From positions 1-64,000 of the forward strand of contig RFFP01000012.1 of the NCBI GenBank assembly GCA_003696155.1: DNA of 64,000 bases, given 5' to 3'. A program made the translations under genes and the position numbers. The DNA is from Acidobacteriota bacterium. GTDB lineage: Bacteria > Aquificota > Aquificia > Aquificales > Aquificaceae. The notes beneath the pieces were generated by a model. That model made no database searches. It was not told the origin of the DNA and worked only from the letters and a program-made list of their open reading frames with translations. Shown here piece by piece: positions 45,252-49,374 of the stretch; the stretch's first letter is position 1; each line of letters starts with the position of its first letter.

Positions 45252-45945
45252 ATTTTTCCACCTCCATGACTGTACATTTATCCACAGGCTCCTTTGCCTT
45301 CGCCGTTGAACCGTACTGTTGTCTTAGGTCTGCTCTGTAGGTTTCAAAAAACTGGCTAAACTGGTCTTTACCCAAGACCCCTATGGCGTAAAAGCCGTCC
45401 TTTTCTTCCTGAAGCACTATAGTAGCTAAGGGTGCCTCCGCAGGTCCATCGATGACGGAGGCTCCTTTCTTGGGGTCGTAAAGAGCAAGGTGGGCACAGC
45501 ACTGTATTATGCCAGCTTTTTTTGTAGTGTCTGAGGGTTTATCGGGTGGATAGTAGTTTATAAAAGAGTAGCCTTTGGTAGGATAGCTCCACTGGTGGGC
45601 ACATATGGCCGAATAGGCAACTATGCTCTTCTTTGAGCCCACACCACCGGGCCACTTGTAGGACTTTCCGTCCTTGAGGGAAATGTCCTGAGCAGGTATT
45701 TCCTCGTTCAGGTTTAGAAGGTAGCAAGGTGTAGCAACGTGTGGGTAGAAGAATATGTAAGTCTCGTGAGGCTTTAGGTCGCTCTCCTTAAGGGGTGAGC
45801 CATCTTCCTTTATGAGCAAAGCCCTCTTATAAGCCTGGAACATGCTGTCCTTTTGCTGGGCTAAAACCTCTGAAAAGACCTTGGCATCTACCATGGAAGC
45901 TACTGCAATGGTAGTGCATGTCTTTATAAAGCTTCTCCTGTCCAT
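45226..45945 (-). CDS. Tat-exported Rieske [2Fe-2S] protein
   Basis: The 239-aa protein has a Tat signal (DRRSFIK). Its Rieske ligands are C115/H117 (ICAHQW) and C149/H152 (QCCAHLALYD). The two extra cysteines that form a disulfide in bc1-type Rieske proteins are not in their usual places (CAHQWS; CCAH). Two more cysteines lie near the C-terminus (about 223 and 239). It could accept electrons from the FCSD-like flavoprotein encoded right after it. An exact sigma-54 promoter match lies upstream. Confidence 0.87.
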   Translation of the reverse strand: MDRRSFIKTCTTIAVASMVDAKVFSEVLAQQKDSMFQAYKRALLIKEDGSPLKESDLKPHETYIFFYPHVATPCYLLNLNEEIPAQDISLKDGKSYKWPGGVGSKKSIVAYSAICAHQWSYPTKGYSFINYYPPDKPSDTTKKAGIIQCCAHLALYDPKKGASVIDGPAEAPLATIVLQEEKDGFYAIGVLGKDQFSQFFETYRADLRQQYGSTAKAKEPVDKCTVMEVEKYVKEVIRC

Positions 45946-45978
45946 CTTTCCTACCTCTTAGCTTTTTTCAATTTTATT

Positions 45979-45995
45979 AGCAAAGTTCGTGCCAA
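45979..45995 (-). promoter_or_regulatory. Sigma-54 (RpoN) promoter for the Rieske-FCSD operon
   Basis: On the minus strand TTGGCACGAACTTTGCT matches the consensus YTGGCACGrNNNTTGCW at every defined base, with the GG and GC doublets 12 nt apart as required. The predicted start is near 45968, leaving a leader of about 23 nt with an AGGTAGGAAAG ribosome-binding site before the ATG at 45945. Confidence 0.75.
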
Positions 45996-46043
45996 AGAAG
46001 GACACACCTTAAACAAGCCCCAGCAAATCCCTTGTCTGAAGTT

Positions 46044-46064
46044 TGTTGCAACAGAAGATGCAAC
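46044..46064. promoter_or_regulatory. Inverted repeat, possible enhancer-binding site upstream of the sigma-54 promoter
   Basis: TGTTGCAACA (46044-46053) is a perfect palindrome, and GTTGCA (46045-46050) is repeated inverted as TGCAAC at 46059-46064. It lies about 75-95 bp upstream of the predicted sigma-54 start, where activators usually bind. Confidence 0.4.
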
Positions 46065-46081
46065 GCGGGGCTTAGCCCCGC
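46065..46081. terminator. GC-rich hairpin after the FCSD-like 2 gene
   Basis: GCGGGGC and GCCCCGC pair perfectly around a TTA loop. It sits 7 bp past the stop of the 46089 gene. There is no T-run after it on either strand, so it may be a weak terminator or an RNA-stability hairpin rather than a classic intrinsic terminator. Confidence 0.4.
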
Positions 46082-46088
46082 CAGAGTA

Positions 46089-47417
46089 TCACGAGAACAT
46101 GTCCTTATACATAGCCCTCGCCCATTCGTAAGTTGCCTTTGCCAAAGCCTGGGACCTTTCGTTTATGGTCCTTGGACTCGGTAATATCTTGTTTTCCTTT
46201 TCGTCGTGTCTGTAGGTTACGCTTATGACTATGGCCTCCTGAGGTGTGCCGTTCACCATAGAGTAGCAGACGTTCTCAGGCATACCGGGTTTTATAGGCT
46301 TGCCAGCTATCCTGCTTGCAATAACCTTGGCGACTACTTTACCCTGTGAGTTTGCCATGTGCCCGCTCTTTGGATAGGGTGTGCCAAGGGCGGGGGATAT
46401 GACGTCTCCTACAAGAAAGACGTTAGGATCTGCCTTTGCCTGGAAGGTCAGAGGGTCTTGGTCTGCCCATCCTGTGGGGGCTCCCTCTGGGTTCTTTGCT
46501 ATCAGGTCTGCCATCCAAACAAGCTCTCCAGCTTGTTGGGGCGGGACTAAGTTAGCATCTGCGAACTTAAAGTCTCCTGCGGTGGTCTTTATAACCTTTT
46601 TAACTGGGTCTACTTCTTTTATCGTTGCGTTTGGTACATATTCTATGATGCCAAGGTAAACTTGTTCAAAGGCCGTTCTGAAGCCTGGTCCCTTTGGTGC
46701 TATGTCTCCCTTGGGGTCGAGAACTATAACCCTTCCCTTTACCTTGTTTCTTTTAAAGACCTCAGCTATCATACAAGCCCTTTCGTAGGGTGCGGGCGGA
46801 CATCTGTATGCACCTGGTGGCACAGTTATTATAAAATCGCCCTCCTCAAACTCGTTTATCTTCCTCTTAAGGGCTAGGTGTTCTGAGCCGGGTATAAAGG
46901 CCGCCGGATATTTGGTCTTTGCAATCCTTGCAAGTTCCTTATCGTCCTTAAACCATGCTGCATAGTTGTAGCGTATACCTGGTGCAAGTACAAGATAGTT
47001 GTACTCTATGTATCCGTTAGGTGTGTAGACCCTTTTCTTTTCCCTATCTATACCTATCACAGCTTGATTTATAAACCTGTAGCCGTACTTTGCAGCAGGT
47101 TGGTTGTAATCGTGGGATATAAAATCAAGGGAAACCATGTCTGCAAGCCACTCGTTGGATATGGGGCAGGAGAAGAAGTTTGGCCTTTTTTCAATTAGAA
47201 TGACCTCTATGTTTGGGTCTTCCTTCTTCAGGTATTTGGCAACGGTTAGACCGCCCCATCCACCACCGCACACCACAACCCTGTTGCCCTTTGGTGGCGG
47301 AAGCATGGCTTCCATCTTTACAACCCTCTCTGCTGCTGCGAGCACTGGCTTAGAAGACAGCCCAATAGCTAATGCCCCCACGCCTGCAGATTTGATTAGG
47401 TCCCTTCTTGTTACCAT
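46089..47417 (-). CDS. Flavocytochrome c sulfide dehydrogenase-like flavoprotein, Tat-exported (FCSD-like 2)
   Basis: The 442-aa paralog of the 43995 gene has a Tat signal (TRRDLIKS), FAD loop VVVCGGGWGGLTVAKYL, and active-site cysteines C206 (AYRCPPAPYERACM) and C384 (NVCYSMV). It has its own good promoter (47447-47476). It is separated from the Rieske gene by 143 bp containing hairpins and a sigma-54 site, so the two paralogs appear to be regulated separately. Confidence 0.87.
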   Translation of the reverse strand: MVTRRDLIKSAGVGALAIGLSSKPVLAAAERVVKMEAMLPPPKGNRVVVCGGGWGGLTVAKYLKKEDPNIEVILIEKRPNFFSCPISNEWLADMVSLDFISHDYNQPAAKYGYRFINQAVIGIDREKKRVYTPNGYIEYNYLVLAPGIRYNYAAWFKDDKELARIAKTKYPAAFIPGSEHLALKRKINEFEEGDFIITVPPGAYRCPPAPYERACMIAEVFKRNKVKGRVIVLDPKGDIAPKGPGFRTAFEQVYLGIIEYVPNATIKEVDPVKKVIKTTAGDFKFADANLVPPQQAGELVWMADLIAKNPEGAPTGWADQDPLTFQAKADPNVFLVGDVISPALGTPYPKSGHMANSQGKVVAKVIASRIAGKPIKPGMPENVCYSMVNGTPQEAIVISVTYRHDEKENKILPSPRTINERSQALAKATYEWARAMYKDMFS

Positions 47418-47446
47418 GTTATACCTCCCTAAAAGGTTTGCTTAAA

Positions 47447-47476
47447 ATCATATTTCTATAGGTGCAGGGCTGTCAA
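47447..47476 (-). promoter_or_regulatory. Sigma-70 promoter of FCSD-like 2
   Basis: TTGACA (47471-47476) and TATGAT (47447-47452) are spaced by 18 bp on the minus strand. The 33-bp repeated element ends 21 bp upstream of the -35 box, in the place of an activator site. Confidence 0.6.
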
Positions 47477-47497
47477 TTAAGATATGCTTAACCTCTT

Positions 47498-47530
47498 ATT
47501 AGAAGGCTTTATTTAAGTATATTAGCATAT
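47498..47530 (-). repeat. 33-bp conserved upstream element, copy 2
   Basis: This is 27/33 identical to 36513-36545. It lies 80 bp upstream of FCSD-like 2 and about 90 bp from ilvB on the other strand. The left part (AGAAGGCTT, 47501-47509) is also repeated inverted as AAGCCTTCT at 47535-47543, which copy 1 does not show. Confidence 0.55.
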
Positions 47531-47619
47531 ACAGAAGCCTTCTTAGGGCTCTCTTTTAATTCTTCCTTAATACTGCGCCTATATTATATACTTTAATCCT
47601 GTCTTTAGGAGGTTTTAGA

Positions 47620-49374
47620 ATGTTGAGAAAAGGCGCGGACATTGTAATAGAGGCTCTGAAAGAAGAGGGTGTGGAGGTTTTATTTGGACACCCGGGCGGT
47701 GCCATAATGGAAGTGTACGATGCCCTATACAGGGATGGCGGTATAAGGCATATACTGGCAAGGCACGAGCAGGGTGCGGGACACATGGCAGAGGGCTACG
47801 CCAAGGCTACTGGAAAGGTTGGTGTGGCCATGTCCACCTCGGGACCGGGTGCCACCAATCTAGTGACCGCTATAGCGGATGCCTACATGGATTCTGTCCC
47901 GGTGGTTTTCATCACCGGGCAGGTGCCTACCCACCTTATAGGTAACGATGCCTTTCAAGAGGTTGACATAGTTGGTATAACCAGACCCATAACAAAGCAT
48001 AACTTTCTCGTAAAGAGGATAGAAGACCTGCCCCTCATAATAAGACAGGCCTTTTACATAGCGAGAACAGGAAGACCTGGACCAGTTCTCGTGGACATAC
48101 CCAAGGATATAACCCAGAAGTTAAGCGACGTACCCATACCCTCCCTAGAGGAGGTTAAGGAATCCCTTCCGGGCTACAAACCCCATACAGAGGGTAACAT
48201 ACAGCAGATAAAGAGGGCAGGAAAGCTTATAATGGAGGCTAAAAGACCTGTTCTTTACGTGGGTGGGGGTGCGGTTCAGTCTGAAGCTCAGAGGGAGCTT
48301 GTGGAGCTTGCGGAACTTATGAAGGTGCCAGTAACAACTACCAACATGGGCAAGGGTGCTTTTCCCGAGCTCCATCCTTTAGCCCTGCACATGCTTGGTA
48401 TGCATGGAACCTACTACGCTAACATGGCAGTTTACAACTGTGACCTTCTTATAGCTGTGGGTGCTCGTTTTGATGATAGGGTCACAGGTAAGGTGGAGGA
48501 GTTCGCCCCACAGGCAAAGATAATCCACATAGACATAGACCCCGCATCTATCTCCAAAAACATAGTGGTGGATGTGCCCATAGTGGGTGATGTGAAGATA
48601 GTGCTCAGAAAGCTGATAGATGAGATAAGGAAAGAGGGAGCAAAGATAATCTTCCCAGAAGATAGAAGGGAATGGATTGAACAGATAGAAAGGTGGAAAA
48701 AGCTTAAGCCCTTAACCTATAAAAACTCAACCGATATCATAAAGCCCCAGTTTGTTATAGAGCAGATCTACGAGGCTACAAAGGGGGAAGCTATAATATC
48801 CACGGGTGTGGGACAGCATCAGATGTGGTCTGCCATGTTCTACAAGTACTCCTTCCCGAGGCAGTTTATAAACTCGGGCGGGCTTGGAACCATGGGCTTT
48901 GGCTTTCCTGCGGGCATAGGAGCAAAGATTGGAAGACCGGAGAAGGAGGTATTTGTGATAGACGGGGATGGGTCCTTTATGATGACCATGCAGGAGCTTA
49001 TAACCGCAGTGCAGTACAAGGTTCCTGTAAAGGTGGCTATAATAAACAACGGATACCTTGGAATGGTGCGCCAGTGGCAGGAACTCTTCTACGAAAGAAG
49101 GTACTCCGAGGTGGACCTAAGCGTACAGCCAGACTTTGTAAAGCTTGCACAGGCCTGTGGTGCTGTAGGCTTTAGGGCGGAAAAGCCCTCGGAGGTGAGA
49201 GAAATCATAGAGGAGGCTCTAAAGGTTCAGGACAAACCTGTCATAATGGACTTTCATGTAGACAGGGAGGAAAACGTCCTTCCCATGGTGCCCGCTGGCA
49301 AATCTTATAAGGATATGATACTGGAGGATGGTAAGAAGGCTGTGGAGGCTGAGACCATGTACTTAGTAGGATAA
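47620..49374 (+). CDS. ilvB: Acetolactate synthase large subunit
   Basis: The 584-aa TPP enzyme makes acetolactate or acetohydroxybutyrate for valine, leucine and isoleucine. The catalytic glutamate lies in [30 protein letters not shown] is a conserved motif, and the TPP motif runs from [10 protein letters not shown] to [16 protein letters not shown]. It has a TAGGAGGTTTTAG ribosome-binding site and AT-rich TATATTATATAC about 35 bp upstream. The upstream leader shows no attenuator-like peptide that I can find. Confidence 0.97.

Follow-up and report, generated by a model that had tools for sequence, protein, structure and literature searches.

Sigma-54 regulation has been little studied outside Proteobacteria. 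In Cupriavidus and Acinetobacter, the genes for sulfide oxidation are reported to be under the sigma-54 activator FisR (Li et al. 2017, cited in PMC7315123). The TspS-TspR system of Acidithiobacillus caldus likewise couples sigma-54 activation to sulfur metabolism, acting on the sox sulfur-oxidation cluster through the palindromic UAS TGTCCCAAATGGGACA (PMC6335251). For Aquifex aeolicus, NtrC4 (Batchelor 2008, cited in PMC3162934) and the NifA-like AQ_218 (Studholme 2000, cited in PMC12316311) have been reported.

Here we analyse a 64,000-nt stretch of DNA (the window) from the genome G000, a member of the hot-spring Aquificaceae, a deep-branching, hydrogen- and sulfur-oxidising lineage. The locus of interest comprises a Rieske gene flanked by two genes for flavocytochrome c sulfide dehydrogenase-like flavoproteins, FCSD1 upstream and FCSD2 downstream (Table 1). 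Our preferred reading, which we hold to be highly probable, is that Rieske and FCSD2 have a working sigma-54 promoter. A PAS-type enhancer-binding protein (EBP) encoded on contig C34 would act on this promoter from the 46045-46064 palindrome, and would also activate its own operon. A testable circuit is thereby obtained from sequence alone: a promoter, a putative binding site, an activator gene and two target operons.

The sigma-54 promoter and its surroundings

Read on the minus strand, 45995-45979 is TTGGCACGAACTTTGCT, i.e., TTGGCACG-AACT-TTGCT. The first-pass annotation had taken this element for an exact RpoN promoter, and it indeed shows no mismatch to YTGGCACGrNNNTTGCW; both the -24 TGGCAC and the -12 TTGC are present and their GG and GC are 12 bp apart. 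Within the window it is the sole match at up to two mismatches, with about 1.6 two-mismatch matches expected by chance. Genome-wide scoring in G000 (1.47 Mb) relied on pattern searches, in which exact YTGGCACGN4TTGCW returned two sites, the present one and C32:12160, directly preceding lpxC (gene named by eye). Allowing up to two mismatches gave 75 genome sites versus 52 with a reversed-pattern control, an only moderate excess, so that mismatch sites are mostly noise and exact matches and positions carry the weight. Other one-mismatch sites, which fall within genes such as rplE and tatC (named by eye) or at their borders, were dismissed. In a scan with a promoter matrix derived from the DUF2173 promoters of other genera (see below), the Rieske site scored 22.4 bits and the next window position 13.7, the fixed columns being overweighted since the training sites were chosen by pattern. 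An Rfam search of 45500-47700 returned no match.

Table 1. Features of the Rieske-FCSD locus (window coordinates) and of the activator operon (contig coordinates)
Feature	Coordinates	Strand	Remarks
sigma-54 promoter, -24 (TTGGCACG) and -12 (TTGCT)	45979..45995	(-)	Exact consensus; 7 sister species; matrix rank 1
GTTGCATCTTCTGTTGCAAC, putative UAS of PAS-type activator	46045..46064	(-)	Centre about -87 relative to predicted start; only exact copy in the genome; motif recurs at activator operon
GC-rich stem-loop GCGGGGC-TAA-GCCCCGC, just past FCSD1	46065..46081	(-)	Fold; similar hairpin at same place in sister species
Rieske 2Fe-2S protein, 239 aa	45226..45945	(-)	Tat-type signal (MDRRSFIK); C-x-H...C-x2-H cluster motif
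FCSD2, flavocytochrome c sulfide dehydrogenase-like flavoprotein, 418 aa	43995..45251	(-)	PF21706 3.2e-24; PF09242
FCSD1, second FCSD-like flavoprotein, 442 aa, upstream of sigma-54 promoter	46089..47417	(-)	PF21706 6e-29
sigma-70 type promoter of FCSD1, TTGACA-18-TATGAT	47447..47476	(-)	11/12 matches; conserved in most of the genus
PAS activator operon DUF2173-DUF2173-SCP2-EBP	G000 C34:11599-14480		Outside the window
PAS-PAS-AAA+-Fis activator gene	G000 C34:12915-14480

Given the -12 GC at 45981/45980, transcription is predicted to start at 45968, which would leave a 23-nt leader to the Rieske ATG at 45945, containing AGAGGTAGG (45958-45950). The distance of about 23 nt that had been ascribed to the element itself fits this predicted leader; the element ends 33 nt before the ATG.

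The inverted repeat (core 46063-46047) had been proposed as a typical activator site. As expected of such a site, it is conserved, and its motif appears again at one other operon, which itself encodes an EBP. A UAS matrix scan, with the same overweighting of fixed columns, ranked 46065 second in the window. A third half-site (AACA), present in sister species, is not kept in the window species. Folded together with the adjoining UAS repeat, the stem-loop reaches -23.2 kcal/mol (z -4.6); as it has no T-run, it probably directs processing or stops transcription only in part, unlike a classic terminator.

In the Rieske protein, a distant relative of SoxL2, SoxF and arsenite-oxidase AioB, a long loop separates the cluster motifs; its structure prediction (8 homologs) had a mean pLDDT of 35. 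The Rieske and FCSD2 genes have 26 nt in common, so that both are expected on the same transcript. Tat-type signals were read by eye on FCSD1 and FCSD2, and in both PF21706 lies well above its cut-off and PF09242 above it, barely so in FCSD2. No partner cytochrome c subunit was found among the ORFs neighbouring FCSD1 and FCSD2; the Rieske gene occupies that place.

The proposal that a sulfide-dehydrogenase-like/Rieske operon is under RpoN is supported for the downstream FCSD2 but not for the upstream FCSD1, which has its own conserved sigma-70 promoter. The cell would therefore most likely make FCSD1 constitutively and add Rieske plus FCSD2 on demand, upon a signal. A CTTAAATAAG-like element upstream of the FCSD1 promoter (window 47447-47560; L257-L264 equivalents) is kept across the genus and may be recognised by another regulator.

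A search of 61 relatives recovered a Rieske ortholog from 36. Within the window's genus, eight species carry the promoter (G000, G004, G006, G007, G009, G010, G012, G013), and it is absent in G001, G002, G003, G005 and G008. The same order precedes the Rieske gene in all eight: a GC-rich hairpin after the FCSD1 stop, the TTGCAACA..TGTTGCAA palindrome and TGG(C/T)A-N6-TTGC, the remaining spacer having diverged. TGG[CT]A-N6-TTGC is found in 8/8 of these species versus 0.2-0.6% of shuffled 150-bp leaders, although the species are related and were chosen for carrying the element and so do not count as eight independent trials. The resolution of the Rieske protein tree is too poor to date gain or loss of the promoter. 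A TTGGCAC just before the Rieske ATG in two g12 species (G046, G031) was rejected as a promoter, as the transcription start would coincide with the ribosome-binding site or lie beyond it, and no palindrome is seen there.

Could the exact match be fortuitous? Transcription from FCSD1 would then read through into Rieske and FCSD2, and both hairpin and palindrome would be RNA processing signals. The FCSD1 sigma-70 promoter is strong and conserved, the hairpin after FCSD1 lacks a T-run, and several species have the Rieske gene directly after FCSD1 with no promoter between. Yet the -24/-12 element has been retained along with the palindrome, at a distance of 51-53 bp, within diverged intergenic DNA, and the same pair stands before another operon; we thus regard a chance match as very improbable. 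Some read-through from FCSD1 may well occur besides the sigma-54 start.

Sigma-54 machinery and the PAS-type activator

It had been suggested that the genome be searched for rpoN and NtrC-type activators. G000 has one intact rpoN gene on C32 (376 aa, RpoN box ARRTVAKYRK) and three intact EBP genes, on C6, C34 and C32. The sigma-54 of the window's genus is short (358-376 aa; G000 C32:159232-160362, L044:733-1863; L050), and Pfam does not recognise region I, the activator-interacting domain, in rpoN of this genus but does so in that of G016 and G030. The loss of region I from Pfam detection raises the question of how the sigma-54 of this genus still depends on activators.

The C6 EBP is GAF-type and NifA-like. 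The C32 EBP is receiver-type and its best structural relative is 3DZD, which we take to be A. aeolicus NtrC4; in A. aeolicus, lpxC has been reported as an NtrC4 target. A fourth EBP, NtrC-type, has decayed into pieces (C25:143647-144080, L034/L035); an intact gene for an OmpR-type response regulator adjoins it. A one-mismatch sigma-54 site precedes a nifH-like gene, with a TGT-N10-ACA site upstream. This gene and its promoter are seen at two contig ends that share sequence (C8:5829 / C2:12377; L005, L004). The genome appears to encode nitrogen fixation.

The third EBP, on C34, has the AAA+ sigma-54 interaction domain (PF00158, 230 bits), a PF02954 Fis-type HTH and the GAFTGA motif. Of 25 activators compared, 24 keep cysteines 43, 50, 53 and 80 of the first PAS domain, and the remaining sequence lacks its N-terminal part; in the second PAS domain, C151 and C188 are retained by nearly all homologs. 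In relatives, the first ATG of the operon lies about 38 nt downstream of a -24/-12 promoter, with a TTGCAACA-N1/2-TGTTGCAACA site farther up; in G000 this palindrome is degenerate (GTTGCAACATTGATGCGACA). The proposed search for further copies of the inverted repeat thus found, besides the single exact copy in G000, the motif before the activator operon in genomes of the genus and in other genera.

Among relatives, the constant operon is DUF2173-DUF2173-(cytochrome c)-SCP2-EBP, the small cytochrome c gene being present in several species. In 10 genomes of the genus and in several other genera, the first DUF2173 gene is preceded by the palindrome and the -24/-12 element; the arrangement extends to other Aquificaceae genera and, in a weaker form, to G024 of another family. 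In G006 the DUF2173-SCP2 genes keep promoter and site and the EBP gene is located elsewhere, and in G008, whose Rieske gene has no palindrome, a palindrome copy precedes a gene cluster ending in a PAS-type EBP. The DUF2173-DUF2173-SCP2 set is tandemly duplicated upstream of the activator operon in G004 and G008 (L154, L158). The G016 activator gene (C1:56399-57958; L235) is interrupted within its AAA+ domain by a single in-frame TAG, either a nonsense mutation or a sequencing error, and the palindrome and promoter of its DUF2173 operon are kept.

Extent of the proposed regulon

The composite pattern TGTTGCA-N46-76-TGGCA-N6-TTGC was searched in 64 family genomes with its reversal as a control. 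It gave 25 matches, all 25 at a DUF2173 operon or a Rieske gene, and none with the reversed pattern; as the pattern fixes 16 bases, only well-kept sites were counted and weaker targets are possible. Direct reading identified 24 of the 25 as DUF2173 or Rieske leaders, and the last (G070) is a DUF2173 gene with a disturbed start codon. The gap between palindrome and promoter is 51-53 bp at Rieske and 71-76 bp at most DUF2173 leaders (52 in G016, 50 in G071). The two gap classes differ by about 21 bp, around two helical turns, so that the helical face is kept, as expected of an activator facing the polymerase. In the mechanism we propose, a signal would act on the N-terminal PAS domain with its four conserved cysteines, and the AAA+ ring, bound at the TTGCAACA..TGTTGCAA sites, would contact the sigma-54 polymerase across either gap through its GAFTGA loop and open the promoter.

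Promoter, palindrome, rpoN, activator gene and the sharing of promoter plus palindrome at exactly two loci were computed directly, and from them we infer binding of the activator at the palindrome and activation from there. Because the Rieske gene shares promoter and palindrome with the operon of the Cys-rich PAS EBP, this protein, and not NifA or NtrC4, is the likely activator of the Rieske promoter. A real sigma-54 promoter driven by another activator, be it the NtrC4-like C32 protein, the NifA-like C6 protein or an orphan, would draw on the intact C32 and C6 genes and on the ability of EBPs to work at non-cognate sites. The palindrome, however, recurs only at the operon of the PAS activator; regarding the presumed targets of the other two, it is absent from the lpxC leader and was not seen in the stretch of the nifH leader examined, and we consider such an activator improbable. 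A one-to-one pairing is likely, in which the NifA-like protein would serve nifH, the NtrC4-like protein lpxC, and the PAS EBP its own operon plus Rieske-FCSD2.

The Rieske promoter was not seen in any genome that lacks the activator gene, and G003 and G005 have neither. G008 and G002 (the latter with an activator fragment) have the activator and no Rieske promoter, which makes the link lineage-specific. Rieske and FCSD2 appear to have joined an older regulon, that of the DUF2173 operon, in one genus.

Candidate signals and comparison with known systems

From gene content and the PAS cysteines only, our best guess for the signal is redox state or a zero-valent or reduced sulfur cue, read by the four conserved cysteines, which would suit a persulfide switch or a site for a metal or Fe-S cluster. 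The G006 activator gene directly follows genes for a SorAB-like sulfite dehydrogenase (named by eye), and two Sulfolobaceae are reported to induce a DUF2173 protein strongly when grown on sulfur (PMC11323534). Taken together with the cysteines, these observations make sulfur or redox control of the regulon likely.

A variant that concerns the signal only, and is compatible with activation by the PAS EBP, would have the four PAS cysteines hold a metal or an Fe-S cluster that senses O2 or redox, in place of the reaction of sulfane sulfur with cysteine that has been proposed for FisR. Four conserved cysteines in the first PAS domain are enough for a cluster, and the small cytochrome c gene in several DUF2173 operons agrees with it; the FCSD genes, the SorAB-like genes and the induction of DUF2173 on sulfur point to sulfur at least equally, and we give this variant slightly less than an even chance. 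More speculatively, and to our mind rather doubtful, this may be an ancient Aquificota regulon in which the PAS activator reads zero-valent sulfur (or redox) via the four-cysteine site, DUF2173 (roadblock-like) and SCP2 belong to a sensing or sulfur-carrying chain, and Rieske-FCSD2 is an electron outlet added in one genus. If true, DUF2173, a protein of unknown function, would gain a role.

No earlier description of a DUF2173/Rieske regulon was found in a limited literature search, and the present one offers a first regulatory context for DUF2173 and for the Aquificaceae Rieske/FCSD cluster. FisR resembles the PAS activator in being a sigma-54 EBP whose N-terminal domain is regulatory, and it switches on sulfide-oxidising genes, but it targets sqr and persulfide dioxygenase genes, whereas the targets here are Rieske and FCSD2. 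The neighbours of the PAS activator are DUF2173, SCP2 and cytochrome c genes, not the sqr/persulfide dioxygenase neighbourhood of the FisR type, and we know of no DUF2173 or SCP2 partners of FisR. The cysteine spacing also seems to differ, with 53, 64 and 71 in FisR against 43, 50, 53 and 80 here. TspS-TspR shares the sigma-54 activator, the sulfur-oxidation cluster and a palindromic UAS; it is, however, a two-component system that controls sox from another UAS. NtrC4 and the NifA-like protein of A. aeolicus belong to the same phylum and use the same sigma-54 machinery, and both have counterparts in G000, but they differ from the PAS activator in their sensor domains and, as far as known, in their sites and targets. 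The kind of system is the familiar sigma-54/EBP circuit; what the present analysis adds is the proposed regulon with its likely activator, the putative site, the second and older target and the placement of FCSD1 outside the sigma-54 unit.
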